Below, in pieces: positions 43,448 through 63,765 of a DNA stretch of 64,000 nucleotides. A program made the translations under genes and the position numbers. Origin of the DNA: Planctomycetota bacterium (GTDB lineage Bacteria > Planctomycetota > UBA11346); assembly GCA_028280785.1 (NCBI GenBank), contig JANQLF010000116.1:1-64000 (forward strand), read 5' to 3'. The notes under the pieces were generated by a model. The model saw nothing but the letters and a program-made list of their open reading frames with translations, did no database searches and was not told where the DNA came from. Within the stretch, counting starts at the first letter, position 1. Every line of letters begins with the position of its first letter.

Positions 43448-43543
43448 TTTTAATTTAAAATCTTCAGCGATTCCCAGATAACATACTTTTCAGCTAAGCT
43501 AAGGGTTATGTGTCTTTAAGCACGCGGCGAGTTCTCGAGCCGG

Positions 43544-43656
43544 CGAACGCCGAAGAACGGTCTGAGCTAATTGCGAAGAAATTAATGAAGCGTAGCGGAG
43601 TTAATTAGTGATGACAAAGAGAGCGAGGGGGCATGGGGGAGTATCCCCCAAAACAA
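43544..43656 (+). repeat. Intergenic repeat family R1, copy 1
   Basis: CGAACGCCGAAGAACGGTCTGAGCTAATTGCGAAGAAATT...GATGACAAAGAGAGCG...GGGGGAGTATCCCCCAAAACAA; colinear with copy 2. Confidence 0.85.
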
Positions 43657-43660
43657 GGAA

Positions 43661-44662
43661 TCAACGCCAGCGCGGCCCTTTTTTCTTTTTACTCGAATTG
43701 CGCACATTACCGCCGCTAGTTTTTTTGCTCTGCTTTTTTAAACCAGCAAGCACACGTAAATCATTGAGGTCTGGATTGACATCGAAAATTTTACGATCGC
43801 CACTAATGAGAATAGTCGCTGGCGTGCTTTCGACGCCCCAGGCTTCTTTCCAACGTTCGGAGTCACCTTTGGGAGCAGGATTTGCCCACATTAAATCCCA
43901 ATTGGTACCTTCGGCTATTTCATTCCAGGCACTCAGTGCAGAAATATATTTATGGTCGAAGCTGACGCAGACGATTTTAAAATCTTTTTGAAATTCTTCG
44001 CGTTTGAACTCTTTGCACACTTCCTTGAACTGATAAAGTTTCCAGTCATCGTTGAGCTCGGTAAAACAATAGAGTAAGTATTTTTCTTTACTCTCAGCGA
44101 CCGGATTTTTCGAATCCCCTGACAAATTATTGCCTTCCATTTGTGGTGCATCTTCGCCACGTTTTTCGTAAAGCGATACCAGCGCGGCGTAATTTTCGAA
44201 TTGGGGAATGCGAATAGTTAATTGGTCGACTAATGCACGTGCTTTACCAGTTTCACCTTTCAGTAGGTGATAGCGAATACGCACGATGTCGAGGCTGCCT
44301 TTATGTGCACTGTAAGCACTGCTGGCAAGTCCATCCATATATTGTTTCGCGTCATCAATATCATAGGTGACGTGCCAATCAGCGAGCAAATACAGCAAGC
44401 GATTATTAGCTTTGGTGCCACGAATTTTTCGTTCTAAACGTTCTAATTCAGCACCGAGACCCAGTTCTGCTTTCATGCGCTTCTCAGCTGGCAGCATGCG
44501 ATAGGCTTCGATCTTCGCTTCCATCGCTAGTAGCTGTGCTTCTGCATCATATTGCTGTTGTTGGGATAAACCCGCAGCACTCAGCACTGTACATAGACAC
44601 CAACAAAGACTCACGCGTAACATGAATGACATGTTGCGTAATTCTTGGAATTGGAAAGGCAT
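43661..44662 (-). CDS. Secreted thioredoxin-fold (TlpA-like) protein
   Basis: Signal-like N-terminus; EKYLLYCFTELNDDWKLYQFKEVCKEF...GVESTPATILISGDRKIFDVN. Lacks a CxxC at the expected position. Confidence 0.65.
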   Translation of the reverse strand: MPFQFQELRNMSFMLRVSLCWCLCTVLSAAGLSQQQQYDAEAQLLAMEAKIEAYRMLPAEKRMKAELGLGAELERLERKIRGTKANNRLLYLLADWHVTYDIDDAKQYMDGLASSAYSAHKGSLDIVRIRYHLLKGETGKARALVDQLTIRIPQFENYAALVSLYEKRGEDAPQMEGNNLSGDSKNPVAESKEKYLLYCFTELNDDWKLYQFKEVCKEFKREEFQKDFKIVCVSFDHKYISALSAWNEIAEGTNWDLMWANPAPKGDSERWKEAWGVESTPATILISGDRKIFDVNPDLNDLRVLAGLKKQSKKTSGGNVRNSSKKKKGPRWR

Positions 44663-44688
44663 ATTTGGAGTTGATTCTGTTTAGATTG

Positions 44689-44801
44689 CGAACGCCGATG
44701 AGCGGTCCGAGCTAATTGCGAGGGAATTTATGTAGTGTAACGGAATAAATTAGTGAAGACAAAGTGAGCGGGGGGCCTGGGGGCATTAGCCCCCAAAACA
44801 A
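44689..44801 (+). repeat. Intergenic repeat family R1, copy 2
   Basis: CGAACGCCGATGAGCGGTCCGAGCTAATTGCGAGGGAATTTATGTAGTGTAACGGAATAAATTAGTGAAGACAAAGTGAGCGGGGGGCCTGGGGGCATTAGCCCCCAAAACAA. Confidence 0.88.
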
Positions 44802-45059
44802 CTAGTCATCTAGCTCAAATTTGATAACTTCGACAGGGCAGCCTTCAGCTGCTTCTTCGATTTGATCAGCAAGATCATCGCCTTCATCGGCTTTGAGCGG
44901 GTTCTTCTCATCGCGGTTTTCGCTTGTTTCGCCGTCCTGACGGACTTCACCAAGGATGACGCAGGAATCTTCAGTCACCTTAAACACTTCTGGGCAGGTG
45001 GTTTCACAGGCATTGCAGACAATGCAGCCTTCCTCGATCCAAACAGCAGTAACAGCCAT
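44802..45059 (-). CDS. Ferredoxin
   Basis: CIVCNACETTCPEVFKV ... AAEGCPVEVIKFE. Confidence 0.88.
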   Translation of the reverse strand: MAVTAVWIEEGCIVCNACETTCPEVFKVTEDSCVILGEVRQDGETSENRDEKNPLKADEGDDLADQIEEAAEGCPVEVIKFELDD

Positions 45060-45213
45060 AACCTATGATCCTTCTTGTTCAGGCGTGCCTGTTGTAAGGG
45101 GCCAATGGATTTGACAAGTAGTTATGGGGTTTGGGCTGCATCAACGAGATGTATAGGCATTTCATCGCCAATAGGCGATTGCCCGGTCATAATATGCTCA
45201 AAGATGCGCATAG

Positions 45214-46164
45214 ATGCGGCGTTTCTTCACTTTTATATTTACCAAGGCCCTTGCTTCCTTGCGTTATGAAACTGCAGAACGGCTTGGGGCAGCACTTGGC
45301 CTATTGGCCTACAATCTTGGTGTTCGTCGTAAGGTAGTTGCTGATCAGATGCGTCTGTGTCTGCCACATCTATCAGTGAGCGAACGACGTCGCGCAGCAA
45401 AGCGCTGCTATGCCAGTATCGGCGCCAATGTCTTCGGCATTTTTGCAACCACAGATGACGAAGAGCCGTTTGGTTCTGGTTGGGAGCAGATGAGTCCAAG
45501 TTGGTGTCGTCTGATGGGTGAAAAATATCCCGGTGCCATTTACCTCACTTTGCATTTGGGTGCATGGGAAGCTAACGCCTGGATTACCATGAGGCATTTA
45601 CCGCCAAAACGCATGATTTGTTATGCAACTGCTCAGCGGGAAGCGTCTCTAGATAAAGAATTGAATGAACGACGCGCCCATTGTGGTGGTGAAATGGTTT
45701 TTGTTCGCGATGAAGATCGGCGCAGTGCCTTGCACACGATACGGTCTTTACGTAATGGTGAGCGTTCGGTGTATTTATTAGCTGACCAAGGACCACGTAA
45801 ACAACACGGTGAGCCCGCGTGGTTTTTAGGCCAGGCAACATATTGTCACCATGGTGCTGTGGTTTTTGCCCAACGAACAGCGGTGCCGATTATTCCTTGT
45901 GTGAGTATTCGTATTGCATCAGGAAGATTTAAATATTTTTGTGGCCGTCCATTTGATTGCACCGACCTTGATGAATCACTGGCATTACAAGTTTGTATGG
46001 ATCAATTATCAGCATTAATAGCAGCATTTCCCGGACAATATTTCTGGCATCATCGACGTTTTAAACATTATGCTGAATTAACAGCACGCGAAGCAGAGGC
46101 ATGGCGTCAACACGGTTTGCAGATACTAACGCAGCCAGAATTGGGAGTCACTGATGTACATTGA
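45214..46164 (+). CDS. Lipid A biosynthesis acyltransferase (LpxL/HtrB family)
   Basis: YLTLHLGAWEANAW (HxxxxE-like), LRNGERSVYLLADQGP, QYFWHHRRFKH. Confidence 0.85.
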   Translation: MRRFFTFIFTKALASLRYETAERLGAALGLLAYNLGVRRKVVADQMRLCLPHLSVSERRRAAKRCYASIGANVFGIFATTDDEEPFGSGWEQMSPSWCRLMGEKYPGAIYLTLHLGAWEANAWITMRHLPPKRMICYATAQREASLDKELNERRAHCGGEMVFVRDEDRRSALHTIRSLRNGERSVYLLADQGPRKQHGEPAWFLGQATYCHHGAVVFAQRTAVPIIPCVSIRIASGRFKYFCGRPFDCTDLDESLALQVCMDQLSALIAAFPGQYFWHHRRFKHYAELTAREAEAWRQHGLQILTQPELGVTDVH

Positions 46165-46501
46165 TATTTTACCCAATGATAATTTAGAAGAAGCCGTCAT
46201 GGCGACGTTTAGCGAAAAAGGCGATAAAAAGCCGATCCAACGTATTCGCCTGTGGCGCCAACAAGAGTGGCAATGGTGCGCTATTACTGGCTGGCAAGAT
46301 GAAGAAGCTTGTCAGGCTCATATTATTTTAATCGAAGAAAGTGGTGACGGCGAAGCCATGTTAGTAACTGGTGGCAATCAAGGCTTACGCATTGCGCGTA
46401 TTAAAGATGCCGATGCTGAAATGCCCGAGTGGGATCTCGATGATGACGAGCAGTGGGCTGAAGGGTTTTTAATTTGTACAATGGATATTGAGGTAGATTA
46501 A
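46154..46501 (+). CDS. Hypothetical protein
   Basis: 115 aa; overlaps the upstream stop and abuts the downstream start (apparent operon). Confidence 0.6.
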   Translation: MYIDILPNDNLEEAVMATFSEKGDKKPIQRIRLWRQQEWQWCAITGWQDEEACQAHIILIEESGDGEAMLVTGGNQGLRIARIKDADAEMPEWDLDDDEQWAEGFLICTMDIEVD

Positions 46502-47160
46502 TGAGTGAGGCAAAGAAAATACAAACGTATCCTGACGGTGCGGATCGCTTACCAGCTGGTCAACACGAAACGACAAAATGGCCAGTGCTGACTTATGGAC
46601 CAACACCCATTGTCGAAAAAGAAGATTGGCAACTACGCATGTGGGGTGCCTGCGAAAATGAAATTACTTTAAATTGGGACGATCTTAAGCAGTTTCCGTA
46701 TACGACCTTAATTGTTGATTATCATTGCGTGACTACCTGGTCGGCCATGGACATGCGTTTCGGTGGTTATTTATTGCGAGATATTTTTGCACTGGCCAAA
46801 CCAAGTGCTGACTGCACCCACGTGATGCAACATGCCTACGGTGATTACACCACGAATAATCCATACGATGTATTATTAGATGACGATGTGATGCTGGTCA
46901 CGGATTGGAATGATCAGCCACTGCCGCGCGAACATGGTGGACCGGTGCGCGTGCATGTACCGAAGCGTTGGGCCTGGAAAGGTGCGAAGTGGGTCAATGG
47001 ATTCGAATTTTTAACCCATGATGTGCGCGGGTTTTGGGAATTAAATGGCTACCACACTCACGGCGATCCCTGGGGTGCTGGTGGCGAGCGCTATTCAAGC
47101 CAAGAACAAGCCTGGGAAAAACGCAAAGAGGGTAACCGACTACGCAAAGAACAATCCTAA
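46501..47160 (+). CDS. Sulfite-oxidase-like molybdopterin oxidoreductase
   Basis: DYHCVTTWSAMDMRFGG (Cys ligand region), PREHGGPVRVHVPKRWAWKGAKWVNGFEF. Confidence 0.88.
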   Translation: MSEAKKIQTYPDGADRLPAGQHETTKWPVLTYGPTPIVEKEDWQLRMWGACENEITLNWDDLKQFPYTTLIVDYHCVTTWSAMDMRFGGYLLRDIFALAKPSADCTHVMQHAYGDYTTNNPYDVLLDDDVMLVTDWNDQPLPREHGGPVRVHVPKRWAWKGAKWVNGFEFLTHDVRGFWELNGYHTHGDPWGAGGERYSSQEQAWEKRKEGNRLRKEQS

Positions 47161-47330
47161 GCGTATCGTCGTAAACCCTGTAAACAGCAACGAAAAACAG
47201 CCGCAGTGTCTGTATTTCACAGTGTTTAGGTCGTCAATGCGTTAGACAGAGTATAGTGAAATATGCTATTTGCTTATTGCCCCGAATGCTGCTGAGCACT
47301 AGAATAGGGCATCAGGTGGAGGTCGTTTTC

Positions 47331-47681
47331 GTGGCAATCAAATTCTCTTCAGACAAAAATCCCGGTACCTCGAGTTACAAGAAAAAACAAGCTCCCGATT
47401 TGCAGGCGCAGGTTTACGAACTGCAAAGTCGCCTTGATCGCATGGCTTTAACCATGACCGCGATGTGGGAAGTGCTCACTAAAGAGACGGAAATAACTGA
47501 AGAGCAATTAATGGAAAAAATTAATGACCTCGATATCGATGATGGGGTCATGGATGGAAAAATTGACCCAGAACAACGCGTCTGCAAGCAATGCGGAAAG
47601 CCAATTAAACGTCGGCAACTGCGCTGTGGTTATTGTGAAACGTTTTCCCCGATCGAACGTCCTTTTGATGCTCTTTGGTGA
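47331..47681 (+). CDS. Zinc-ribbon hypothetical protein
   Basis: Likely GTG start at 47331 after GGTGGAGG; CKQCGKPIKRRQLRCGYC. Confidence 0.6.
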   Translation: MAIKFSSDKNPGTSSYKKKQAPDLQAQVYELQSRLDRMALTMTAMWEVLTKETEITEEQLMEKINDLDIDDGVMDGKIDPEQRVCKQCGKPIKRRQLRCGYCETFSPIERPFDALW

Positions 47682-47783
47682 ATTGGGCAAATGCGTAGCA
47701 TTTAAAAGAGCACGGGCGTGCTTTTCTATACCCTTGTGGTGCTTTGGCCCAAGAATAGGCAACTTTATGTTGCCGTGGAAATT

Positions 47784-47910
47784 CTAGGGGCTCTGCCCCT
47801 AGGACCCCCGCTTCGCTTTGCACGGTCTAGCCGCATCAAGATCCAAACTAATTTATTCCGCTTCGCTATATTAATTCCTTCGCATGTAGCTCAGATCGTT
47901 TGTCGGCGCG
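47784..47910 (-). repeat. Intergenic repeat family R1, copy 3 (inverted, with internal insertion)
   Basis: Reverse complement gives GCGCCGACAAACGATCTGAGCTACATGCGAAGGAATTAATATAGCGAAGCGGAATAAATTAG...GCGGGGGTCCTAGGGGCAGAGCCCCTAG. Confidence 0.8.
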
Positions 47911-48025
47911 AGCATTTATAAAAGTAAGCTCTTGTTAAAAAGAAGATATTAGAACTTTCCGATTCATCATACATTCTGCTTAGCTGAAATTGACATAGTA
48001 GTATTGGGTCTAGGCTTCTGAGTTC

Positions 48026-49012
48026 ATGGCAGACAACAGCTATCAAGATGTCGTTAGTAAAATGCAGGCGGCAGAACGCATTTGTATTACGACGCATATC
48101 AATCCAGATGGTGACGGTATCGGTGCAGGTCTGGCCTTGCTCTTGGCTTTGCGTGCTGGTGGTAAGCAGGTGCGTTTTATCTGCCCGAGTCCAATGGCGA
48201 AAATTTATGAATTCCTTCCCTGCTTTGATGAAATTGTGGTTTGTGATAAACCAGAAGCTGTGAAAGAACTTGGGAATGTCGGTACCTTGATCTCTTGCGA
48301 TTGTGGTGATCGCGCACGACTCGGTGTCGTCGCTGAAGCTGAACGCGATTGCTTAATCAATTTGGATCACCATGCGAGTAATGATCGTTTTGGTGATATT
48401 AATTTGGTTGATGTGCAAGCTGAAAGCACTGGCGTTGTTGTCGAAGGTGTACTTCGCGCTTTGGGTTTTGGATTAAATAAACCAATCGCTACCTGTCTGT
48501 ATACGACCATCGTTTTTGATACCGGTCGTTTCATGCACAGTAACACCACGGCACATACCTTTCGTTGGACGGCGAATTTATTAGATACCGGAATCGATGC
48601 TGCGTTAATTAATCGCAAATTAACCTATACGCGAACCAAGCATGATTTAGATGTACAGCGCTTAGCACTGGATTTTCTACTTATTGACGAGGAAGATCAG
48701 CGCATTGCTGGCATTGCTTTAAATAAAGCTGACATTGAACAAGTTGGGCGTCCGGAAGATTGGGGTGAGCTCGTCGAAATACCACGCAGTTTAGTTGGTA
48801 ATGAAATTGCATTTTTACTGCGTGAAAATGCAGACGGGGCTTCGGTCCGATGCAGTCTGCGTTCAAATCCACCTTACGCTGTTGGCCCAGTGGCTGAACA
48901 TTTTGGTGGTGGTGGACATCTGCAAGCAGCGGGATGTACCATCGAGGGTTCGATTGACGATGTGCTGAAAGTATTAGTCCCGCAGTTGCGGCAGCAAATG
49001 AACATATCGTAA
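48026..49012 (+). CDS. DHH-family phosphoesterase (NrnA-like)
   Basis: ITTHINPDGDGIGAGLAL, SCDCGDRARLG, INLDHHASNDRFGDINLV, HFGGGGHLQAAGC. Confidence 0.93.
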   Translation: MADNSYQDVVSKMQAAERICITTHINPDGDGIGAGLALLLALRAGGKQVRFICPSPMAKIYEFLPCFDEIVVCDKPEAVKELGNVGTLISCDCGDRARLGVVAEAERDCLINLDHHASNDRFGDINLVDVQAESTGVVVEGVLRALGFGLNKPIATCLYTTIVFDTGRFMHSNTTAHTFRWTANLLDTGIDAALINRKLTYTRTKHDLDVQRLALDFLLIDEEDQRIAGIALNKADIEQVGRPEDWGELVEIPRSLVGNEIAFLLRENADGASVRCSLRSNPPYAVGPVAEHFGGGGHLQAAGCTIEGSIDDVLKVLVPQLRQQMNIS

Positions 49013-49069
49013 TTTATTTCTCGAATTACAGACTGGTGGAAACACCGGTTAAATTACTATTGAGCAAAG

Positions 49070-50854
49070 ATGGCTGAATCGCAGGTAAAACGTCTGACTC
49101 TGGATTTATTGAAGCGTCATCGCGGACGCTTAATCGTCCTTCTGGTACTCACGATCATAGCATTCATGAGTATGTCAGTCAGTTATTGGTTTTTTGGCGA
49201 GGCTATTTCCGATATTAAACAACATCTCGATGTGCCTAAAGACGAATTTATGGATGTCGTCGTTTTTTGGGCAGTGCTTATTATGTGTTTTTCAATTGGT
49301 CGTGGTGTGTTTTTATTCATTACGGCGTTTTTACGCATTACCGCTATTCAAACCATTTTGCACTATTTACGCGAAACCTTATTTGATCGTGTCCAAGAGA
49401 TGGAATTGGACTGGCATCATAAGCATGGCGCAGGCGAATTGGTGACCCGGACCACCCGTGATTGTGATATGGTACGCAATGCAACGGATTCTGGTTTTCA
49501 GTTAGTGGAAATTGGAACCATGCTGTGTGGATCATTAATATTGTTATATACCTATCACTGGCAGCTATTTATTATCCCATTTATTTTAGTTGTCATCGCT
49601 ATGTTTCTGTATTATCGCCAAGCCAAGGTGATGGTCCATCTGAATAGGGCCACTGACGATGCCTATGATCACGTGACGCAAGATTTAACTGAGGGCATCG
49701 CGGGTGTTCGCGTGGTTAAAGCATTTGGCTTAGAAGCCCAACGCTCAGAGCGTTTTAGCGGACACGTGAATGAATTTATCATGCATGGTTTGCGCGCGGT
49801 TAAATATGCAGTGACGCGTATTCCGTTACCGCAATTAATGGTGGCAATGGCCCATCCATGGCTCTTGGTTTGGGGAATTCTATTAATCGAAGCAGGCGTT
49901 CGTTGTCATGCGACCGGTGATATTTTTGATGTCGGTCACTTGTTGGCCTGCTTGATGGCAGTGACTACGTTGATTTTTCGTTTAGACGGCATGGGTTCGG
50001 CGATGCGTATGATTGCCGAAGCAATTGCCTCGATGCAGCGCTTGTCCGAAGTCATTTATTCAGAGCCAAAATTAAATAGCGGTGATCAATTAATTGCTGA
50101 AGGTGCGATACATATCGACGTTAACGATATCCAAGTACAGGATGATAAGGGGCATTGGATACTGCGCGGTTGTACCTTTGATATCAAACCAGGAGAAATC
50201 GTTGCTTTAATTGGTTCGACTGGATCGGGAAAAAGCACGCTGTGTTCATTAATACCGCGCTTGAAAGATGCCTACGCTGGGTCGGTTACCTTTCGCGATG
50301 AACAAGGCGGTGAGACTGAAGTACGGAATTGTGATTTATCGAAATTACGTCGCCGCGTTCAGGTCGTGCCACAGGAAAGTTTTTTGTTTTCTGACACGAT
50401 CGCTGGCAACATGCGTATGGGTAAGCAGGACGCCAGCGATGATGAAATCTGGCAGGCCTTAATTGATGCAGGCATAGATGAGTTCGTCCGTGGTCTTGAC
50501 GATCAATTAGATACGCAGGTTGGTGAACGCGGTATGAATTTAAGTGGTGGTCAAAAGCAGCGCTTATGCTTGGCCCGTGCTTTGGTTAGTAAACCCGACG
50601 TGTTAATTTTGGATGATAGCACCAGTGCCTTGGACGCGATCACCGAAGAACATATTTTTAAATTGATGCGTGAACAAAAAAGCGGCTCATCGGTTTTGTT
50701 AGTAACGACCCGTTTATCGAGTGTTTTATTAGCCGATCGTGTTTTGTTGTTAGGTGATGGTCAAATAATTGCCAACGATACGCATCAACATTTAGCTGAG
50801 CACAATGATCGTTATCGCGGATTGCTCTGTCTCGACCAGGAGGGCTCGGTATGA
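49070..50854 (+). CDS. ABC exporter half-transporter, subunit 1 (non-canonical Walker B and H-loop)
   Basis: GSTGSGKST Walker A; LSGGQ; LILDDSTSALD; LLVTTRLSS at the H-loop position. Confidence 0.93.
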   Translation: MAESQVKRLTLDLLKRHRGRLIVLLVLTIIAFMSMSVSYWFFGEAISDIKQHLDVPKDEFMDVVVFWAVLIMCFSIGRGVFLFITAFLRITAIQTILHYLRETLFDRVQEMELDWHHKHGAGELVTRTTRDCDMVRNATDSGFQLVEIGTMLCGSLILLYTYHWQLFIIPFILVVIAMFLYYRQAKVMVHLNRATDDAYDHVTQDLTEGIAGVRVVKAFGLEAQRSERFSGHVNEFIMHGLRAVKYAVTRIPLPQLMVAMAHPWLLVWGILLIEAGVRCHATGDIFDVGHLLACLMAVTTLIFRLDGMGSAMRMIAEAIASMQRLSEVIYSEPKLNSGDQLIAEGAIHIDVNDIQVQDDKGHWILRGCTFDIKPGEIVALIGSTGSGKSTLCSLIPRLKDAYAGSVTFRDEQGGETEVRNCDLSKLRRRVQVVPQESFLFSDTIAGNMRMGKQDASDDEIWQALIDAGIDEFVRGLDDQLDTQVGERGMNLSGGQKQRLCLARALVSKPDVLILDDSTSALDAITEEHIFKLMREQKSGSSVLLVTTRLSSVLLADRVLLLGDGQIIANDTHQHLAEHNDRYRGLLCLDQEGSV

Positions 50855-52653
50855 GCGATCTTGATGTCGAAGAAGATTTAGCCAAGAAGTCATTGGACCG
50901 GGCAACGCTATTACGCCTGTGGGGATTAATGAAATCAGTGCGCTGGTTATTGATCAGCGTCATGGTGGTATCGACTTTTTTAATTCTTTGCGTTTTTGCT
51001 CGTCCCTATTTTATCGAATGGGCGATTGACTATGGCATCATAACGAGTGAAGACGACGCGATCAGTACTGATTTAGATTGGTTGTTGTTAATGGCTGCTG
51101 GTTTAGTTGGCATTTGGGTTGGTCGCTTCGGTGCATTTATTGCCAGTCGATATTTAGCCGGTGTCATGGCCTTTAAAATTTTGAACGATGTGCGTCGTCA
51201 GTTATTTGATCATGTGCACTCCTTAAGTATGCGCTTTTTTGATAAGACCAAAGTGGGCCGCATCGTTAGCCGTGCGGATAGCGATGTGAATCATATGGAA
51301 ATGGCGGTTATCGAGGGACCGGTATTAATCTACACGACCTTAGTGCGCTTTATTTTGGCTAGTACGGTCTTGTATATCTATAGCCCGCGGGTTTTATTTG
51401 CCTTGGCTCCGATTGTTCCCGTTTTGGCAGGTTCGATGTTCTTATTTCATAAAATCGGCACAGCGCTGTATGCAAAAATTACTGAAGCACGCAGTCGTGT
51501 CACCGCGCATTTGGTCGAAACCATTGGTGGTATTCGTATTTTACAGCAATTGGCTCAAGAGAAGCATAATCGTGGTGAATACGAAGAGAAATTAAATTAT
51601 CTAGACCTGCGCGTCTGGCGTGGCGCCTTGGGCTGGTCATGGTTCTTCCCATTCATTTTAATTCTGTTTATGGGCGGTTTATGCATTGTGATCTGGCAGG
51701 GTGGCACGGCACTACGTGAAGGTGAATTAACCATTGGCGAGTTTACGACTTGTACTTTTTACGTGTTTTTATTCTTAGGCCCATTAGCTGATTTAGGCAT
51801 GTTGTATGAGCATTTGGCGCGCGGTATTGCTTCGGCACAACGCATCTTTTTATTGCTCGACACCGAAGCAGAGATTGTCGATGATGGAGAGGCCTATGAC
51901 CTGAAGGAAGTCAAAGGCGAATTGGAATTTAAAGATGTGCGTTTTGCTTACAACGAAGGCGAATGGGTCTTGCATGGTGTGAATTTACAAGTGCCTGCCG
52001 GACAAAACCTAGCCATCGTTGGCCCAACCGGTCATGGCAAGTCAACCATGGTGCAATTACTCGCGCGCTTTTACGACATTCAAGAAGGCACGATCAGCAT
52101 CGATGGTCATGACATCAGCAAGGTAACCCAGGCAAGCTTACATAAAAATGTCGGCGTAGTTTTACAGGATAATATTTTATTCACCGGATCTATCTTAGAT
52201 AATTTACGTCTAGCGAAACAAGATGCGACTGACGAAGAATTAATCAAAGCCTGCAAAGATCTCAAGGCTGACGAAGTGATTGAGCGCTTGCCGAATAAAT
52301 ATGAAACCCAAGTCGGTGCACGTGGTGACCAGCTTAGTCACGGTCAACGTCAATTGGTCTGCTTAGTACGCGCTTACCTCGCTGATCCAGCAGTCTTGGT
52401 TTTAGATGAAGCGACTTCCTCGATTGATGTCTACACCGAACAACAGGTACAAAAAGCCTTATGGCGTTTATGCGAAGGCCGTACCGCGATTATTATTGCC
52501 CATCGTTTAGCAACCATCCGCGATGCTGACAGCATTATTGTGATAAACGAAGGTAACATTGTCGAACAAGGTAAACATCAAGAACTCGTCGATAGTGGTG
52601 GTAAATATGCCGAACTTTACGAAAGCTACAAAAAAGGTGGCATCGTCGAATAG
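50851..52653 (+). CDS. ABC exporter half-transporter, subunit 2 (degenerate signature)
   Basis: GPTGHGKST Walker A; LSHGQ signature; LVLDEATSSID; IIAHRLAT H-loop. ATGA overlap with subunit 1. Confidence 0.93.
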   Translation: MSDLDVEEDLAKKSLDRATLLRLWGLMKSVRWLLISVMVVSTFLILCVFARPYFIEWAIDYGIITSEDDAISTDLDWLLLMAAGLVGIWVGRFGAFIASRYLAGVMAFKILNDVRRQLFDHVHSLSMRFFDKTKVGRIVSRADSDVNHMEMAVIEGPVLIYTTLVRFILASTVLYIYSPRVLFALAPIVPVLAGSMFLFHKIGTALYAKITEARSRVTAHLVETIGGIRILQQLAQEKHNRGEYEEKLNYLDLRVWRGALGWSWFFPFILILFMGGLCIVIWQGGTALREGELTIGEFTTCTFYVFLFLGPLADLGMLYEHLARGIASAQRIFLLLDTEAEIVDDGEAYDLKEVKGELEFKDVRFAYNEGEWVLHGVNLQVPAGQNLAIVGPTGHGKSTMVQLLARFYDIQEGTISIDGHDISKVTQASLHKNVGVVLQDNILFTGSILDNLRLAKQDATDEELIKACKDLKADEVIERLPNKYETQVGARGDQLSHGQRQLVCLVRAYLADPAVLVLDEATSSIDVYTEQQVQKALWRLCEGRTAIIIAHRLATIRDADSIIVINEGNIVEQGKHQELVDSGGKYAELYESYKKGGIVE

Positions 52654-52665
52654 ATCATTTTTAGC

Positions 52666-52768
52666 AAACTAGTATGGGTCTTGGTCCGTAGCTGCGCAAC
52701 TCTTGGTTTTAGTTTACGGTCTTGGAAACTAAGACTAAGACCGAAGCCAAGACTGATACTAGTTAGCT
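52666..52768. repeat. ACTAGTA-bounded palindromic intergenic element, copy A
   Basis: AAACTAGTATGGGTCTTGGTC...GGTCTTGGAAACTAAGACTAAGACCGAAGCCAAGACTGATACTAGTTAGCTAT; similar to 58671..58752. Confidence 0.85.
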
Positions 52769-52875
52769 ATTTTCATCTTATTCTCCTTCAGTGAAAGTCT
52801 CTCTATTTCCTCTGTGATTTCCGTGATAGAATAATTATATTGACAATATTGAGTTTGTTTTAGATTGCGATCATC

Positions 52876-52962
52876 ATGAATAACTTGTGTAACATGTCCG
52901 TATCAATTATGACTCACAATGTGATCGAAAATCCGATCATAAGACGTAAGCGCATGTGCTAA
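52876..52962 (+). other. Possible 28-aa leader ORF upstream of terminator and GNAT gene
   Basis: ATG AAT AAC TTG TGT AAC ATG ... CGC ATG TGC TAA (MNNLCNMSVSIMTHNVIENPIIRRKRMC*); no clear Shine-Dalgarno. Confidence 0.25.
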
Positions 52963-52986
52963 TTTAATGTATTAACCAATCACTGT

Positions 52987-53017
52987 AAGCCGCTTGCCTA
53001 TCGCAAGCGGCTTTTTT
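52987..53017 (+). terminator. Intrinsic terminator/attenuator 13 bp before the GNAT start codon
   Basis: AAGCCGCTTG cctatcg CAAGCGGCTT then TTTT; followed by GGAG and ATG 53031. Confidence 0.88.
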
Positions 53018-53030
53018 AATGGAGTTTATC

Positions 53031-53861: not shown

Positions 53862-53883
53862 TTTCGTGGAACGCAGTAAAAAT

Positions 53884-53942
53884 GCCTGATCGGAAGTAGA
53901 ACAGTCATGCGCCTGTATTCTGTTTTCCGGTCGGGCTCTTTT
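53884..53942 (+). terminator. Probable terminator after the GNAT gene
   Basis: GCCTGATCGGAAG...TTTTCCGGTCGGGC stem (with G-U pairs) followed by TCTTTT. Confidence 0.6.
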
Positions 53943-54120
53943 GCATAAGCCTCTATTTTTCAGTCGTTTAGAAATACCCGCTCGAGTGTTCTAAAGGCAT
54001 TGTGAGGCAATTTCTTGACTCAAAAATAATTAACATATGTTAATTGTAGATTGACGCCTTCAGTACTGCGAGAATGTGGTTGAGGGGTCTGAGTTGCGAT
54101 AGATACTCGGGAGTAGGCTC

Positions 54121-56046: not shown

Positions 56047-56106
56047 AGACTTAATCCTAAGCACATCTAGACAACGGTTGATTGAAAATATATTTATATG
56101 TCCGTA

Positions 56107-57303
56107 ATGAGCGACCTTTCCAAAAAAGATGCTGTTAAATCGCGTGTGCGAACGCTGATTAAAGAAGGGGTTTACTTGCCTGGCAGTAAATTGCCGTCGG
56201 ATACAGAGCTGCACGAAGAATTCGACGCTAGCAAAGTAACAGTGGTTCGTGCCCTCAAGGAATTAGAAGCCGAGGGCTATGTGTATCGTCGGCGTGGTAG
56301 TGGTACTTATATTAGACAACATCGTATGGCACCGATTGTTGAGGGAAAAAAATTTCGCATTGCGATAGCCTGGTTCACTCGTGTCTTCCCTGGCAAATTG
56401 CGTGATGATGCCTTGGGTGTGATTACTCGTTCGATGCTCAAAGAGCTTGGATTAAACAATTTAAAACCGAAGTGGGCGGATAAATCCGAACATGACCAGC
56501 AAACTTGGGCACAATGGGATGCAGGGGACAGTCCGGTTTGCGTTGATGTTCTGGGGCCGTCAGCGGATTGTTTAGAACGTCATCCACCATTGGAATTAAT
56601 AAAAGAAGGTGCATACGATGCAGTTGTTTGTGTATCTTTGGATCATGAGCCGTGGTTGTCTGATTTACTCAAATTAAAAATTCCTGTTATCATTGTTGAT
56701 TTCATGTCGAGACAGTTTGACCTAAAAGCGGACCAGGTCTTTTACGATTCAGTGAGCGCCTATCAGGAAGTCGTGCACCACCTCATCAATAAAGGATGCA
56801 CAAACATTCACTTTGTTGGTGGCTTAGTGCACCCACAACTTGAGTCACGAGAAGGGCTCAGTGTAGAGGACGCGAAGCGTAAACGTTTCGATAAGAAAAA
56901 TAAAATGATCGAGCCGGATTCGTATTTTCGTCTAAGTGCTTTTAAACAAATCATGGAAGAAATGGGACGAATAGTGAACGAAAAAATGATTCACTATACG
57001 TTTTTAGGTTCCCAGGATACGGATACATTTGCTGAAACCATGGCTACACGTAAAGACGCTCCAGATGCATTTATTTGCCACAGTGCTACGCAGGCAGAAA
57101 GTATTCGCAAGGCCTTTCGTAAACAAAAGAAAAAAGTCTTAGCGATTGGCGCCGGGCAGAAGGGCAAAGCGAGCGCATTAAGCATTTTAGATGACAATGT
57201 GCAGCTCGGGCAAGTAGCCGGCGCCATTTTGATTTCACGTTTGAAGCAACCAGGGCGTATTCCACTGCGCGTCGGTGTGCCGCTTCAATTTAAATCAAAA
57301 TAA
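56107..57303 (+). CDS. GntR-type transcriptional regulator with LacI-like sensor domain
   Basis: GVYLPGSKLPSDTELHEEFDASKVTVVRALKELEAEGYVYRRRGSGTYI wHTH; C-terminal periplasmic-binding-like domain. Confidence 0.9.
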   Translation: MSDLSKKDAVKSRVRTLIKEGVYLPGSKLPSDTELHEEFDASKVTVVRALKELEAEGYVYRRRGSGTYIRQHRMAPIVEGKKFRIAIAWFTRVFPGKLRDDALGVITRSMLKELGLNNLKPKWADKSEHDQQTWAQWDAGDSPVCVDVLGPSADCLERHPPLELIKEGAYDAVVCVSLDHEPWLSDLLKLKIPVIIVDFMSRQFDLKADQVFYDSVSAYQEVVHHLINKGCTNIHFVGGLVHPQLESREGLSVEDAKRKRFDKKNKMIEPDSYFRLSAFKQIMEEMGRIVNEKMIHYTFLGSQDTDTFAETMATRKDAPDAFICHSATQAESIRKAFRKQKKKVLAIGAGQKGKASALSILDDNVQLGQVAGAILISRLKQPGRIPLRVGVPLQFKSK

Positions 57304-57334
57304 TTAAATCTTTTATTATTTGTTAAGGAATCCC

Positions 57335-58663
57335 ATGGCCAAAACACAGCCAAATATTCTCTTTATTTTTACTGATCAGCAATCAGCTTCGATGATGAGT
57401 TGTGCGGGTAACAGCTGGGTCAAGACGCCAGCTATGGATAGCATTGCTGAATCTGGTGTGCGTTTTGAACGTGCCTATTGCAGTAATCCGGTGTGCACAC
57501 CATCGCGCTTTAGTGTGTTTACGGGGCGTATGCCGAGTGAAGTTGGGATATCTTATAATGAACAAATATCGGCGGAACGTTTTGATGAAACCATGAAACG
57601 CCAAAGTCTTGGGCACTTAATGCGCGAGGCGGGTTATGATAGTGCATACGCTGGTCGGGTACATACACCGGGTTATTCGATTGACGATGTTGGTTTTGAA
57701 TTGTTGACCCGCGACAGTCGCGAGGGATTGGCAACAGATTGCGAGGAATTCATCAAACGTGAACGCGATAAGCCGTTTTTCTTATTTGCCTCGTATACCA
57801 ATCCCCATGACATTTGTTATATGGGTATCCGTGATTGCCCGAGTGATGAGTTTAAACAACGACAGCATAAATTTTTAGAAGAATTTGCTAATTTAGATGA
57901 GGCGCTATTGCTCCCTCCAGGAATAAGTGAGGAAGAATTTTTCATCAAGCATTGTCCGCCGTTACCAGCTAATTTTGAACCACAAAAAAATGAACCTGGG
58001 GCGATAGATTATTTATTACACCAGCGTCCTTTCAGGCTACATGCACGCGAGCAATATACCGACAAACAATGGCGACTGCATCGTTGGGCCTATGCGAAAT
58101 TAACAGAGCGCGTTGATTCCAATATTGCTGACTTATTACGTATGTTAAGAGAAAGTGGACAGGCTAGTAATACCATCGTTGTTTTATCGAGTGATCACGG
58201 TGATCACGATGCCTCTCACCGTTTGGAGCATAAAACCATTCCTTATGAGGAAGCTGCCAATATTCCGATGATCGCTTCTGGCCCAGGAATAAAACCAAGA
58301 TCTGTAGATAAAGACCATTTAATTTCCAATGGACTCGATCTATTACCGACCTTTTGTGATTACGCTGGCGTTGCAGCGCCAAGTGATTTGAAGGGTCGCA
58401 GTCTACGTCCAATTTTAGAAGGCAAAAATCAAGACGCTTGGCATGAATTCATTCCGATAGAATGTGAAGTCGGTCAGGCATTGGTAACGAGTACGCATAA
58501 ATACATTCGTTATGATCGCGGCAAAAACGCCGAACAATTATACGATTTACAAATGGATCACGGTGAAACCCGTAATGCTATCAATGATCCTGATCAGCAA
58601 ATTTCTTTACAAGAATTGCGAACGCGATTCGACAGTATTTATGGTGAAGTGCAGCGTTGTTAA
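57335..58663 (+). CDS. Sulfatase
   Basis: NILFIFTDQQSASMM; CTPSR formylglycine motif in CSNPVCTPSRFSVFTGR; VLSSDHGDHDASH. Confidence 0.95.
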   Translation: MAKTQPNILFIFTDQQSASMMSCAGNSWVKTPAMDSIAESGVRFERAYCSNPVCTPSRFSVFTGRMPSEVGISYNEQISAERFDETMKRQSLGHLMREAGYDSAYAGRVHTPGYSIDDVGFELLTRDSREGLATDCEEFIKRERDKPFFLFASYTNPHDICYMGIRDCPSDEFKQRQHKFLEEFANLDEALLLPPGISEEEFFIKHCPPLPANFEPQKNEPGAIDYLLHQRPFRLHAREQYTDKQWRLHRWAYAKLTERVDSNIADLLRMLRESGQASNTIVVLSSDHGDHDASHRLEHKTIPYEEAANIPMIASGPGIKPRSVDKDHLISNGLDLLPTFCDYAGVAAPSDLKGRSLRPILEGKNQDAWHEFIPIECEVGQALVTSTHKYIRYDRGKNAEQLYDLQMDHGETRNAINDPDQQISLQELRTRFDSIYGEVQRC

Positions 58664-58670
58664 TTTAGTA

Positions 58671-58752
58671 AACTAGTATGAGTCTTAGTCTTAGTTAACG
58701 GTCTTGGGTACTAAGACTAAGACCAAAGCAAAGACTGATACAAGTTAGCTAT
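58671..58752. repeat. ACTAGTA-bounded palindromic intergenic element, copy B
   Basis: AAACTAGTATGAGTCTTAGTCTTAGT..taacggtcttgggt..ACTAAGACTAAGACCAAAGCAAAGACTGATACAAGTTAGCTAT; 14-bp perfect stem at 58682-58695/58710-58723. Confidence 0.88.
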
Positions 58753-59557
58753 CTATTTTATTCTCTGCTAACACGGCCAATCGCTGCGAATAATTTATCG
58801 GCGCATGATCGCTTAAATGCTTGGGTGTGCTAAACCATAAAGTTGGATCTTTAAGGCGTTCTTTGAAGCGATCGCGTTTGCGTTCTTCGGTGCCAAGCCA
58901 AAGGGCTTCACCGATATGTTTATAGATAAAACGGTCTTTGCTTGGTGGGAGATGTGTCACGATGTCATCTCTGTTGCAGCAACGTAAATGAAAAATATGT
59001 TCAAATTGTTGTGAAAATGTTTCATCACCAACTCGTGGTGAGCCAAAGGTAAATAAGGCATTGGCTTTACAGGTGAGTGCTGCGATGGAGGCCATTGCGC
59101 CACCGAGGCTGTGACCACAGCAAATTAATTGTTTATAGGTGGGCATGTGTCTTCGTAAATGTTGCCAACATAAATCAAACGCTGCTAAAAATCCAGAATG
59201 AACTTTTCCATAATTGTCAAATTGTTCTAGCAGTGCATCAATATTGCGCAGCCAATTTTTAGGCTGGTTGGTGCCACGAAAGGCGAGTATGCAATTCTCT
59301 TGGTGCATCCAAATGCCTGCAGCAAGGTCTTCCACTTCGCACCAATAGTGTTCGCTGCACTCAATCTGGTCTAATGCGCTCTGTCGTGCATGAGCATTGG
59401 TGTTGTAAGCGAGACGCGAACATTCGCTAAACAACCAGGCAAGCTGATGCTTATTATCCACATCAAAGGCTAATTCCCCAAAGACTGCTGGGCCTTGAAA
59501 GTATTCTTCACTATCGCCTGGCGTAAAAACCGCTGACCATGTCGCATCATCTAGCAT
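58745..59557 (-). CDS. Class 3 lipase-like alpha/beta hydrolase
   Basis: LICCGHSLGGAMASIAAL nucleophile elbow; FTFGSPRVGDETF. Confidence 0.9.
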   Translation of the reverse strand: MLDDATWSAVFTPGDSEEYFQGPAVFGELAFDVDNKHQLAWLFSECSRLAYNTNAHARQSALDQIECSEHYWCEVEDLAAGIWMHQENCILAFRGTNQPKNWLRNIDALLEQFDNYGKVHSGFLAAFDLCWQHLRRHMPTYKQLICCGHSLGGAMASIAALTCKANALFTFGSPRVGDETFSQQFEHIFHLRCCNRDDIVTHLPPSKDRFIYKHIGEALWLGTEERKRDRFKERLKDPTLWFSTPKHLSDHAPINYSQRLAVLAENKIDS

Positions 59558-59631
59558 CGACGTGCAGTCTAGGCGACCAAGAATGGAATCCTATTGCTTG
59601 CTTGCCGCCGACTTTCTGCTGTGATGGACGT

Positions 59632-59817
59632 ATGGCGGTACAAATTCACTTCAGTAGTGATGACGGTGAAGAGATGGAAGAGATGTGGTCGAGTCCCGAT
59701 GCCTTTCACAACTGGGCAATTACTGAGGGCCTCTGCGGATCGTATACCGTTTATGAAGAGGATGAGGATGGCGACTGGATGGTAACCCTTAAAGGTCGGG
59801 TTGAAGGCGGACAATAA
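59632..59817 (+). CDS. Small acidic hypothetical protein
   Basis: MAVQIHFSSDDGEEMEEMW...; tightly followed by 59819. Confidence 0.5.
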   Translation: MAVQIHFSSDDGEEMEEMWSSPDAFHNWAITEGLCGSYTVYEEDEDGDWMVTLKGRVEGGQ

Positions 59818-59818
59818 T

Positions 59819-60298
59819 ATGGCAGTAACCGGCGTTTTGATCGAATTAAATCAATTACTTGTTGATGGACAGGTAGCAGATGATGCAGCCTTTCAATTAA
59901 ACCGATTAAATAAAGCGGGCGTTGCTTTGGCCTTGGTGACGCAGGATCAACAAGCAGATGCTGAAGCTGATGTTTCCTCAATAAGTGCAGATATTCCAAC
60001 GCTATCAGTATTTGGTTTGGCTGATGATGCGCCCGCCTCATGGCAGTGGCCTAAGCCAGCACAATTATTGCGTGCCTGTACTGAAAATGATATCGATATA
60101 TTTAATTCTTGGGTTATTGGTACCTCGCATGATTTATTCCGCGCAGCGAGTCAGGCTGGATTACTTGGTGGTATTTATATCGGTGATGACATGCCTGCAG
60201 AAAATCTTGGTCTACAGGTTTTAAATCATGCGCTGTCACTTGGAGATGCGCCGCGTGTTATGATTCCACCACAGGGTGGATGCTGGCACGATCATTAG
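59819..60298 (+). CDS. Degenerate HAD-like protein
   Basis: GVLIELNQLLVDG and WVIGTSHDLFRAASQAG resemble HAD motifs I and IV with catalytic Asp changed. Confidence 0.5.
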   Translation: MAVTGVLIELNQLLVDGQVADDAAFQLNRLNKAGVALALVTQDQQADAEADVSSISADIPTLSVFGLADDAPASWQWPKPAQLLRACTENDIDIFNSWVIGTSHDLFRAASQAGLLGGIYIGDDMPAENLGLQVLNHALSLGDAPRVMIPPQGGCWHDH

Positions 60299-60307
60299 TG
60301 GTGTGTT

Positions 60308-60712
60308 ATGTGGCAAACTGCAATTGTTCTTAGTATCGTCGGTGCATTAATACTTATACAGCTCTATCGTATGACGCGCGGTTTTCGTCGTTATACCGCA
60401 CGTGAATCACAACAGGCAAGCTGGATGCACTTGTTTCCCGTCAAAGAGCATCAAGAGCTCGTCCATCTCATGCTTGAAGGTTTTAGTCGCTCGTTTCTAT
60501 TTCCTGTTAGTGCTTGTTGGCACTTTCGCCCCGATGATAAAATCGCAGATATTTTAGCGACGACTGATAATAATCACACTGATCATTTACAATACGATAT
60601 GTTTCAAGTGGTTTTACAAGACCTTGGTTTAGAAGAGCGTCCACGATTTGAAGAAGTGGATTTACGCACAGTAGCTGAATTACTCATAGCAGCACGATTT
60701 AATAAGCCATGA
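60308..60712 (+). CDS. Hypothetical protein with N-terminal membrane segment
   Basis: 134 aa; TM at N-terminus; overlaps the next start. Confidence 0.55.
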   Translation: MWQTAIVLSIVGALILIQLYRMTRGFRRYTARESQQASWMHLFPVKEHQELVHLMLEGFSRSFLFPVSACWHFRPDDKIADILATTDNNHTDHLQYDMFQVVLQDLGLEERPRFEEVDLRTVAELLIAARFNKP

Positions 60713-61101
60713 GTGACAAAGAGAATGCCTTTGCTGCGCCACAAAATGATGAGCAAGCGCCGCATAATGACGCTGAATCATTAATTAAAATTCCACACCA
60801 TCTTGCTAAGTGGTTCAATGCGATCGGTACGATTTTTCTTGCTGCATCGGTGTACTTATTTAGTAAGGCCGTCGACGATATGAGTGCCTTGTATTATGTT
60901 CGACTCTTGACCTTCATTGTTGGCTTAACGGCTATGATTATCACCTTTATGTTGAAACCGACCTTAATGACCAGAGACGAGGCACAGCGTTATTATCAAG
61001 AGCGCATTGCAGCCAATCCTGAGCGACGTTCAACATTTTTTCCAGCCACAATTGTGATCGTTATTTTACTGATTGCGTTGTTAATTTTGTTAAGCGATTA
61101 A
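60709..61101 (+). CDS. Hypothetical membrane protein
   Basis: 130 aa with three hydrophobic segments. Confidence 0.55.
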   Translation: MSDKENAFAAPQNDEQAPHNDAESLIKIPHHLAKWFNAIGTIFLAASVYLFSKAVDDMSALYYVRLLTFIVGLTAMIITFMLKPTLMTRDEAQRYYQERIAANPERRSTFFPATIVIVILLIALLILLSD

Positions 61102-63539
61102 ACCCAGTTGTGAATAAAAAAGATACCCAATAAAAGATCGCTCGCTTCTCGTTTGCCAAAGCCACAGTCTCGCCAATTTTGCCTGAGTAAATCTAAATAC
61201 CAAACTCCAACACCAAATCGCTGATTACGCCAAATTAAATCATCGATCAATGCTTTGGCATCACCGCCGAATTGAATGCCGTAATGGAAGGCCGAGAGTC
61301 CAATGGCCATATCAAAAAGCGCATCCGCTGCAGCTTGATTGTCATGAACTTCATAAGCGTGCTCAAAATCCTTGCTGCGTTTAATTAGCCATGCCTGCGC
61401 TTCTTCTAAATTGGGATCTTTGCATTTGCGAACATGCTTGCGGATATCTTTGGACATGCTCTCCACGGCAGTGCCGGGTTCCTCAGATTCGCGATGGAGT
61501 TCTTGATAGAAACGTTCCGGTTCACCAAGCAGGTCACCAATCGCAACGGTTAAACTGCGCTTTAAAATCGGATTATTCGTTTCTTTCATGCGCGGTAATA
61601 TGTCATAAATGGCTGCAATTTCGCCAAGGCGTGCCAAGGCTTCGCTTGAAGCGCTGAGAACTTTGGTGTCTTTACTGTGGTGTAAAATATTGAGTAATGA
61701 TTTTGCGGCGCGGCGATCGCCGATCCAACCAAGCGTGCGCGCTGATTCACTTTGTGTTTCGCGGTCGTGATGATCGAGTTGACCGATTAAGGCATCGACA
61801 GATCTGGTGTTAGCACTTTTGCGAAGCGCGCGTGCAATATGAGGATTTAAATCAGTGTGTGGATCATCGAGTTTACATATTAACGCATCGATAGCATCGG
61901 GGCTACCAATGGCGCCGAGGGCATAAACAGCCTGCTCACGTACATCGGTGGAGGCATCATCAAGTTGCTGAATTAAATCACTAACCGCAATAGCAGTATG
62001 TTGTTGACCGAGGGTGCGCGCTGATGCAGCCCGGGCTCCTGGATTTTTACCACGACTGAGCATATAAATGTGATAAATAGATTTGCCGAGTCGTAGTGGA
62101 TTGAGAACTATCAGTCGTTTTAAAGCATCGCTAATACTCAGTTCGTTGGCGCAGGGGCGAATAAAAAATAATAAGGGCGCAGCAACCAAAACCGTAACGG
62201 TGAAAAACCCAATCATTTGCAAATGAATAAAATCAAGTGGCATCCCTAGCGGTAAGATAATTTCACTTGGATAGGCTTGCATATAATCAATGAGTGTACC
62301 GCCGATGATAGGACCGATGGCACCAGCGACACCAATGATGGTCATGAAGACGGCCATCGCTAAGGAGCGACCTGCTTTCGGTGAGAGAGAGGTGCATAAG
62401 TTTAATTGTGAAAGCATGACGCCAGAGCCAAAGGCACCACCTAAAAAGAACCCAGGCATCATCAGCCACACAATATTTGGCATGACATAATTATTAAGCC
62501 ATGGGATGTGTGCGCAGATTGAATTAACGACTGGAATATTTGCACTCAGCGTACTGATGCTATTGGTGCCCGGCATGGCTAAAAACCAGGTTAAGCCAAT
62601 AAAAACACAACAGACCATTGAAATAATGCCGAAGATACGTGAGCCGATGCGATCAATAATGTAGCCCCACATCATCGAGGTGCAGACTGCTCCAAGTGAG
62701 GCGACAATCATTAATAAAGCTTGTTGTGAATAGGTGACTTGAAAGCTGCGCTCTAAATAAATAACACCAAAAGCCCCAACGATACCCGCACCAAAGGCCC
62801 AGGCAGCCATCGATAAACACAATAGTAAAAAGTCGCGTTGCTTCAGCGGTTCGAGGATGCGCTTGCTAAACGATTCATGAGGATTGCTGTTAATCGCCTT
62901 GGGTTCAGGTACGCGCAAATGAATCACTAAATCAATGGCCCCTAAAATTATGGCTACACCAAAGACAACGATAAAGCCAATGTTTTGTCCATCATACGTA
63001 TCTAAAATAAATCCAGCAAATGCAGCAGCTACTAAACCAGCAAAGGTGATCCATAATTGACGACTAGCCCAAAAACGGCTGCGTTTTTTATCTGGCACTA
63101 AGTCTGCCATCCAGCTCAGCCATAATGGCGCAGACATATGTCCCAACGCAAAACTACAGGCCAAGGTAATAATTGTAATCCAGGCAACGGTACTGAGATC
63201 CATGCCCATCATTAATGCGGCTAGAGGAATTAATAATAATAAACGATGCAGTAATGCTAAATAAAACCAAATGTATTTGCGACTATTGGAACGTTCGGCC
63301 CATAAGGTAGCTGGTATTTGCACGCACATAGTTATTTGAAAACAAGTACCAATTAAACCAATCATCAAGCCACTGGCACCAAGATGTTCCATGAACATGG
63401 CCATCGGAAATTGCAGCACATAGGTAATCCAAATGATCCCAATAGATCCGGCTAGGACATTTAAACGAAGTCCTTGGCGAATACGACGATGGCTTATGTG
63501 ATCGCCTTGCGGCGTCAGTAGGGCCTGGGATATACTCAT
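61098..63539 (-). CDS. MFS transporter fused to HEAT-repeat domain
   Basis: 12-TM-like N-terminal part; C-terminal DVREQAVYALGAIGSPDAIDALICKLDD and ETQSESARTLGWIGDRRAAKSLLNIL HEAT units. Confidence 0.85.
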   Translation of the reverse strand: MSISQALLTPQGDHISHRRIRQGLRLNVLAGSIGIIWITYVLQFPMAMFMEHLGASGLMIGLIGTCFQITMCVQIPATLWAERSNSRKYIWFYLALLHRLLLLIPLAALMMGMDLSTVAWITIITLACSFALGHMSAPLWLSWMADLVPDKKRSRFWASRQLWITFAGLVAAAFAGFILDTYDGQNIGFIVVFGVAIILGAIDLVIHLRVPEPKAINSNPHESFSKRILEPLKQRDFLLLCLSMAAWAFGAGIVGAFGVIYLERSFQVTYSQQALLMIVASLGAVCTSMMWGYIIDRIGSRIFGIISMVCCVFIGLTWFLAMPGTNSISTLSANIPVVNSICAHIPWLNNYVMPNIVWLMMPGFFLGGAFGSGVMLSQLNLCTSLSPKAGRSLAMAVFMTIIGVAGAIGPIIGGTLIDYMQAYPSEIILPLGMPLDFIHLQMIGFFTVTVLVAAPLLFFIRPCANELSISDALKRLIVLNPLRLGKSIYHIYMLSRGKNPGARAASARTLGQQHTAIAVSDLIQQLDDASTDVREQAVYALGAIGSPDAIDALICKLDDPHTDLNPHIARALRKSANTRSVDALIGQLDHHDRETQSESARTLGWIGDRRAAKSLLNILHHSKDTKVLSASSEALARLGEIAAIYDILPRMKETNNPILKRSLTVAIGDLLGEPERFYQELHRESEEPGTAVESMSKDIRKHVRKCKDPNLEEAQAWLIKRSKDFEHAYEVHDNQAAADALFDMAIGLSAFHYGIQFGGDAKALIDDLIWRNQRFGVGVWYLDLLRQNWRDCGFGKREASDLLLGIFFIHNWV

Positions 63540-63661
63540 AATACTATGCACCAATAACGAAATGCAGTGATAAAAAAATGTATATTACAATTACAAGAAC
63601 AATTAAAATAAAGATTCTGAACGCCGACTTGTATACGTCGGGAACTCAGTGTCTACTCTTT

Positions 63662-63765
63662 ATTTCGGGGCTACGCCCCGGTCCCCCGCATGCTTTGTCT
63701 TCTCTAATTTTTTCCGTTACACTCCAAAAATTCCCTCGCATGTAGCTCGGACCGTTCATCGGCGC
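63662..63765 (-). repeat. Intergenic repeat family R1, copy 4 (inverted)
   Basis: Reverse complement gives GCGCCGATGAACGGTCCGAGCTACATGCGAGGGAATTTTTGGAGTGTAACGGAAAAAATTAGAGAAGACAAAGCATGCGGGGGACCGGGGCGTAGCCCCG. Confidence 0.88.

Follow-up and report, generated by a model that had tools for sequence, protein, structure and literature searches.

The window analysed here is a stretch of 64,000 nucleotides (contig JANQLF010000116.1, positions 1 to 64,000) from the Planctomycetota bacterium assembly GCA_028280785.1. It contains four copies of a small non-coding element, ~110-150 bp in length, at 43542-43656 (+), 44687-44801 (+), 47779-47914 (-) and 63660-63770 (-). An earlier note, made from the sequence alone, had described these as a dispersed intergenic repeat and placed them within a few bases of these positions. 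The first copy is preceded by an optional 5' hairpin, P0 (GGCGAGTTCTCGAGCC, 43526-43541, +), and its right end (..CCCCCAAAACAA) falls 4 nt short of the stop codon of a convergent open reading frame at 43661-44662 (-). The second copy has the best score among those in the window, and its right end touches the stop codon of a short convergent open reading frame (..GCPVEVIKFELDD*). The third had seemed longer than the others (47784-47910) because of an extra insert of ~21 nt between GA and CAAAG, the domain TCTTGATGCGGCTAGACCGTG; a second repeat module (CCACGGCAACATAAAGTTGCC..) follows its terminal hairpin. The right end of the fourth copy has no neighbouring stop codon.

When copies from the host genome and from relatives are aligned, the order of parts is the optional hairpin P0, a closing helix P1, an internal loop, P2, GG, P3, P4, the hairpin P5 and a right end RAAACAA. 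P2, P3 and P4 form a three-way junction, and the internal loop is nearly invariant (5' GCCGA versus 3' GACAAA). The terminal G/C hairpin to which the earlier note drew attention is P5; it is indeed present, but it is only the last of five parts, and the conserved structure spans the whole element. In the second copy (all on the forward strand), the 5' strand of P1 (44689-44693) pairs with 44764-44768 according to anchor-based pair counts, and is followed by the nearly invariant loop strand GCCGA (44694-44698). The 5' strand of P2, TGAGC (44699-44703), faces GTGAA (44753-44757) with tandem G.A mismatches. P3 is present in a short form (44706-44725), while in relatives it is longer and consists of two parts. 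P4 (AATTTAT..ATAAATT), together with a junction A, occupies 44726-44752, and the conserved GACAAAG at 44758-44764 comprises the opposing loop strand and the first base of the 3' strand of P1. P5 (TGGGGGC-ATTA-GCCCCCA, 44778-44795) and the A-rich right end AAACAA behind it (44796-44801) complete the element. P0 is carried by many other host copies, and in one relative (G004) it reads GGGGTCCCCGGAGCGAAGCGAGCGGGG. The left end (ACACGGCGAG../GGCGAACGCC) and the right end (..AAAACAA) are not inverted repeats.

Some copies are elaborated further. A domain TCTCGATGCGGCTTGACCGTGC lies between GA and CAAAG in the third window copy and in five others (L010, L148, C145:41551, C25:415 and C304:23699). At full length it forms a hairpin with the loop GCACGGT, which could pair with a downstream ACCGTGC, possibly as a pseudoknot; the shorter version resembles a deletion derivative of the full one. 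Separately, a nested repeat family of ~85-95 bp, a second hairpin module (GTGAATT..GCACGGGCGTGC..AATAGGCAACTTTATGTTGCCGTGGA), is found in either orientation inside or beside the terminal hairpin of several copies. Its sites include 47650-47778 (-), beside the third window copy, as well as L010, L018, C116:2782, C143:5505, C151:7579, C3:7718 and C200:8769.

The host genome (G000) is a draft of 5.68 Mb in 316 contigs with a completeness of 89.7%. A BLASTN search with the copy at 44687 finds ~22 clear places, and a covariance model with 18 copies as input finds 70 matches at E<=1, ~67 of them at E<0.01, so the family is genome-wide and extends well beyond the window. The earlier note had allowed that there might be no further copies and no covariation beyond chance; further copies exist, and covariation among diverse copies exceeds that of shuffled sequences. 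A survey with a second covariance model covered 23 genomes of the same bacterial family and 369 genomes sampled from other families of the phylum. Carriers number 18 of the 23 and none of the 369, and the element is confined to one bacterial family within the Planctomycetota. In the relative G004 copies form head-to-tail arrays with periods of 149 or 160 bp, one of which has 15 units; these arrays stop exactly at the 3' ends of tRNA genes (tRNA-Leu) that lie on the opposite strand. Copies also adjoin the 5' ends of transfer-messenger RNA (tmRNA) genes (L093, L103), and others adjoin tRNAs. One copy (L017, G000:C230:35009-38051) lies at the 5' edge of a tRNA-Asp in a dense tRNA array with 11 tRNA matches and a tRNA-Sec-like match. 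Pattern matches in viral contigs proved to be chance coding matches, and a viral origin was rejected.

The fold was tested on 43 diverse sequences, with 35 pairs and 500 shuffles. The named structure is paired in 92.6% of cells compared with 69.6% after shuffling, and when the partner is slid by one column pairing falls to ~46%. Double-sided pair changes occur in 297 cells versus 90 in the shuffled data; 25 of the 35 pairs show them, and none of the 500 shuffles is as high. The covariation score (0.496 versus 0.144 shuffled) is likewise reached by no shuffle. With fixed offsets from two anchor motifs, and therefore no fitting of an alignment, P1 pairing is seen in 97-100% of 87 sequences from relatives and P2 pairing in 86-94%; the P2 figure is the fairer of the two because the copies were chosen partly by P1 pairing. 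These results support a conserved fold under selection, as the earlier note had proposed. The co-variation it saw in the terminal hairpins of the four window copies does exist but, taken alone, is weak evidence; the strong evidence is that from relatives, and single window copies fold no better than dinucleotide shuffles (z-scores of -1.3 to +0.4, compared with about -4 for a relative's copy). Energy models undervalue the window-type copies because two P2 pairs are swapped in them for the tandem G.A mismatches.

The composition of the helices bears on the molecule in which the fold is read. G-U pairs make up only 25 of 1288 standard pairs (1.9%), versus 9.4% in the same columns after shuffling and 8.8% in tRNA acceptor stems of the same loci. 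Many hairpins have a GAA, GCA or GTA loop with a closing C-G pair, and such loops are very stable in single-stranded DNA. The tandem G.A pairs of the window-type copies also speak for DNA. Taken together, the rare G-U pairs and these loops suggest that the structure is read in DNA rather than RNA, and that the element would act as folded single-stranded DNA.

The right end of the element has a characteristic position. Among host copies, 23 of 63 have a convergent stop codon within 6 nt of the right end, compared with 5% of intergenic points chosen at random and with 5 of 66 left ends. TAG accounts for 16 of 26 stop codons at these junctions versus 12 of 48 in the window, and in several copies the last bases of the element itself form the TAG (AAACTA replacing AAACAA). 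The products of the convergent genes include what we take to be PurC-, PstB-, AroE- and PurF-like housekeeping proteins. These proteins end normally and look complete, so the element lies behind the genes and not within them; truncation of the convergent genes by the element was ruled out on the same grounds. Neither target-site duplications, for which the earlier note had suggested a check, nor a displaced tail of the convergent gene on the left side of the element occur above chance in this class.

A second arrangement is found in approximately 15 of 65 host copies. Here the left-hand gene has a normal end just before the element, and the sequence directly behind the right end repeats the last 6-41 codons of that gene in the same orientation, giving a second gene 3' end beyond the element as in integrative elements. 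The duplications are diverged and measure 18-125 nt. At the protein level 11 tail pairs score 46-160, compared with a maximum of 45 among 783 mismatched flank pairs, and four more were spotted by eye (C55, C214, C145:4009 and C237). Over 270 codons of 14 pairs (the misaligned C55 row was left out) silent differences number 104 and replacing ones 23, and 6 pairs have none of the latter. The silent excess indicates that, for most of the period after their divergence, selection at the protein level acted on both tails. Duplication of a tail in place would not give this picture, because the displaced copy is not joined to a gene, and in-place tandem duplication of tail plus element was ruled out where a pair shows many silent changes but no replacing ones. 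Most simply, one tail would have arrived from another lineage with the element. At the ruvB locus the displaced tail, which ends ..GLETPPNQQTGFL versus ..GLPPPQQDPQQRLF, looks native because its ending matches that of RuvB in relatives; the tail in use ends unusually, with ..GLESQGNIFDK. One locus (C143) has the order tail-element-tail-element, with the second element behind the displaced tail, which shows that such an event can recur; one tail pair there is 52/53 identical. P0 is often absent from copies with duplicated tails. Both the duplicated tails and the fixed right end at gene boundaries had been missed in the earlier note.

At the thresholds used, 20 host copies belong to neither class. 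A second repeat interrupts some of them, and others have a terminator hairpin or a start codon directly behind them. Two paralogous genes ending ..NVADMDIKVGSIAGEAG (C25:415 and C261:475) both carry the element at their 3' end, one in the convergent and one in the tail-duplication arrangement.

The precise right end, the seamless left junction within a homologous gene and survival mainly where a gene is left intact lead us to propose that the element is a non-autonomous mobile DNA with a precise right end, whose left end is resolved by homologous recombination. We put the probability of this reading at roughly 0.4. An enzyme acting in trans, for which a single-strand-DNA transposase or recombinase would fit, would recognise the folded single strand and attach its right end with precision at a recipient site. 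No fixed cut would be made at the left end, and homologous recombination with the neighbouring gene would resolve that side. Insertions would survive where the gene stays intact, namely behind a convergent stop codon, at a tRNA or tmRNA edge, or within the final 6-41 codons of a co-oriented gene. Convergent genes and tRNAs would tolerate the insertion without rescue, while co-oriented genes would need a replacement tail; an orthologous tail entering with the element would give the order body, new tail, stop, element, displaced old tail. A bolder form of the claim, which we consider somewhat unlikely, is that this is a new kind of mobile DNA, in which a folded single strand is attached to conserved gene ends precisely at one end and, at the other, by homologous recombination with an orthologous tail. 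Each successful insertion in a gene would then exchange its last codons for those of another lineage, and the old tail would stay behind.

Several observations weigh against transposition of this kind. Convincing tail duplications occur in the host genome only, with none among 87 copies from relatives, where the apparent cases were judged to be read-through of the element itself or low-complexity matches. The assembly is a fragmented and incomplete draft, and a mixture of strains might in principle have helped to produce the tail pairs; even so, the junction between element and displaced tail must exist in the DNA, unless reads were misjoined at ~15 independent places. Host copies are mostly 73-88% identical to one another, so no recent burst is visible. 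Template-switch repair can also give covariation in DNA palindromes, although P1 and P2 are not easily explained in this way. Finally, scans of the host genome for reverse transcriptases, TnpB, tyrosine recombinases and RAYTs (transposases associated with repetitive extragenic palindromic, or REP, sequences) yielded no candidate for the mobilising enzyme that is consistently linked to the copies.

The same observations can be set against other explanations. The earlier note offered a structured 3'-untranslated-region RNA as one identity for the repeat. The element could be a non-coding RNA or 3' element acting in stability or termination, spread by recombination and retained at gene ends for a regulatory role. 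Its strongly conserved secondary structure and its position directly behind stop codons, on both strands, fit such a role. However, G-U pairs occur at about a fifth of their frequency in tRNA stems, no T-run follows the terminal hairpin, and the duplicated tails and the 15-unit head-to-tail arrays are left unexplained. Rfam 15 gives no match to the element in the window at the gathering threshold, and none to its copies at E<=1 (only tRNAs and sub-threshold matches appear). We regard an RNA as unlikely. Quite unlikely, too, is that the element is a DNA attachment site (att) of a trans-acting tyrosine recombinase, of integrase or integron type, that integrates small tail-bearing circles at gene and tRNA 3' ends. 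The 3' ends of tRNA and housekeeping genes, and tmRNA, are classic integration sites, and a restored plus a displaced tail is the textbook result of integration in a gene 3' end. The host genome has eight Phage_integrase (tyrosine recombinase) matches, but none consistently adjoins the copies, and the element itself, ~130 bp and non-coding, encodes no integrase. Moreover, the targets all differ, unlike those of a single integrase with one att site, tmRNA is adjoined at its 5' end, and gene body and new tail meet without a seam, where an attC-type crossover would leave a remnant of the element.

Spread through an RNA intermediate, in the manner of a short interspersed nuclear element (SINE), would involve an RNA with an A-rich 3' end, target-primed reverse transcription, target duplications of variable length and loss of the 5' hairpin in the tail class. 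The A-rich right end, the varying length of the duplications and the frequent absence of P0 from copies with tails agree with this. On the other hand, the convergent class has no duplication, G-U pairs are few, and the tails differ silently, which a fresh copy would not. The only reverse transcriptase gene in the host is apparently that of a retron, on which ground reverse transcriptase-based spread was rejected; no cognate enzyme is seen for a group II intron, a diversity-generating retroelement (DGR) or a LINE-like element either, and we judge a SINE-like origin very unlikely. (This retron-like gene, at L151:11626-12793, encodes 322 aa and is preceded by a hairpin-rich stretch resembling msr/msd.) Also highly improbable is RNA-guided homing, in which the element would be a solo omega-RNA-like guide taking its guide from the right flank, and a silently different tail would protect the allele that carries the element against cutting. 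The right flank does often consist of conserved sequence, whether coding, tRNA or tmRNA, and the tails are diverged at silent sites; yet the 52/53 identical tail pair would be unprotected, and TnpB (PF07282) is absent at E<=0.001 from the host and the element-rich relatives G004, G011 and G012. A search of the genome for IscB (RRXRR) gave zero matches, as did the control genomes. Least probable of all is a REP-type element moved by RAYT (Y1) transposases. The element is multi-hairpin DNA and the host has three RAYT-like Y1_Tnp genes (L121:1947-2516, L152 and L153), but these are flanked by their own palindrome, CCTGGGAGCGCGGGC..GCCCGCGCTCCCAG, and not by the element, which led to the rejection of RAYT as mobiliser. 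There is also no 20-40-bp unit tagged with GTAG or CGTC; neither tag occurs at the ends of the element, whose unit is 110-150 bp with several helices.

Other repeats are present in the window and beside copies elsewhere. A dispersed intergenic repeat (CTTAGTTTACGGTCTTGG..ACTAAGACTAAGACC) occurs at 52701-52770 and 58683-58752 (89% identical), and similar sequence flanks the element copy L012. The repeat ACCACAGATGGACACAGATG adjoins the copies C36:1724 and C222:2823, at C36 in both orientations. Two tandem paralogous genes at 24770-27196 and 27738-30149 encode glycine-rich repeat proteins of ~805 aa each, which share 72-76% identity across long stretches (repeat families D1-D5).

If the element does move as proposed, a tiny non-coding DNA would be able to land in essential genes, including ruvB, by bringing a working replacement tail. 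This would connect the mobility of small repeats with homologous recombination across species boundaries and with the way in which the 3' ends of genes evolve. With 18 genomes that carry the element and 5 that lack it, a single family provides a clean system for finding the enzyme by co-occurrence, and the conserved DNA fold allows one to ask whether interspersed repeats of bacteria act as DNA or as RNA.

No described mobile repeat matching the pattern of the element was found in the literature, and its closest counterparts are small repeats and elements of gene 3' ends. Miniature inverted-repeat transposable elements (MITEs) and the Correia, ERIC and BOX repeats belong to the class of small repeats. 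Like these and the RU repeats (PMC2759123), the element is a foldable non-coding repeat (100-170 bp in that class) with tens of copies; it differs in the absence of terminal inverted repeats and of a constant short target-site duplication, and in a right end fixed at stop codons. REP sequences are palindromes of 20-40 bp with a GTAG or CGTC tag at one end (PMC3733652). Together with the bacterial interspersed mosaic elements (BIMEs) that go with IS200/IS605-like RAYTs, they resemble the element as small, dispersed, extragenic palindromic non-coding DNA, probably mobilised in trans (PMC3733652). In contrast to the tagged REP/BIME hairpin, the element is ~115-150 bp long with a three-way junction and duplicated gene tails, and the RAYTs of this host carry a different REP. 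The label 'REP/MITE-like' in the earlier note holds loosely, for a small dispersed non-coding repeat with no adjoining transposase, but fails for either class in the strict sense.

Integrative elements are known in gene 3' ends, such as e14 and phage 21 in icd and the islands in tmRNA and tRNA genes. With these the element shares a restored tail at one flank and a diverged, displaced one at the opposite flank, targets at tRNA, tmRNA and housekeeping gene ends, and head-to-tail accretion; in contrast to them (the ssrA islands being one example; PMC3146451), it is only ~130 bp long, has no integrase inside and has many unrelated targets. The order of foreign tail, element and displaced native tail recurs in another setting. 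Mobile elements of fungal mitochondria, for example in Allomyces atp6, bring a foreign C-terminus that displaces the native one and encode a homing endonuclease, whereas the present element encodes nothing. The attC sites of integrons are single imperfect hairpins with R boxes that recombine as folded single-stranded DNA. They are comparable as folded single-strand sites located 3' of genes, but the element has a three-way junction and no cassette array. Overall, the family joins the known small non-autonomous dispersed repeats, and there is a real chance that its tail-replacing mechanism is new in kind.

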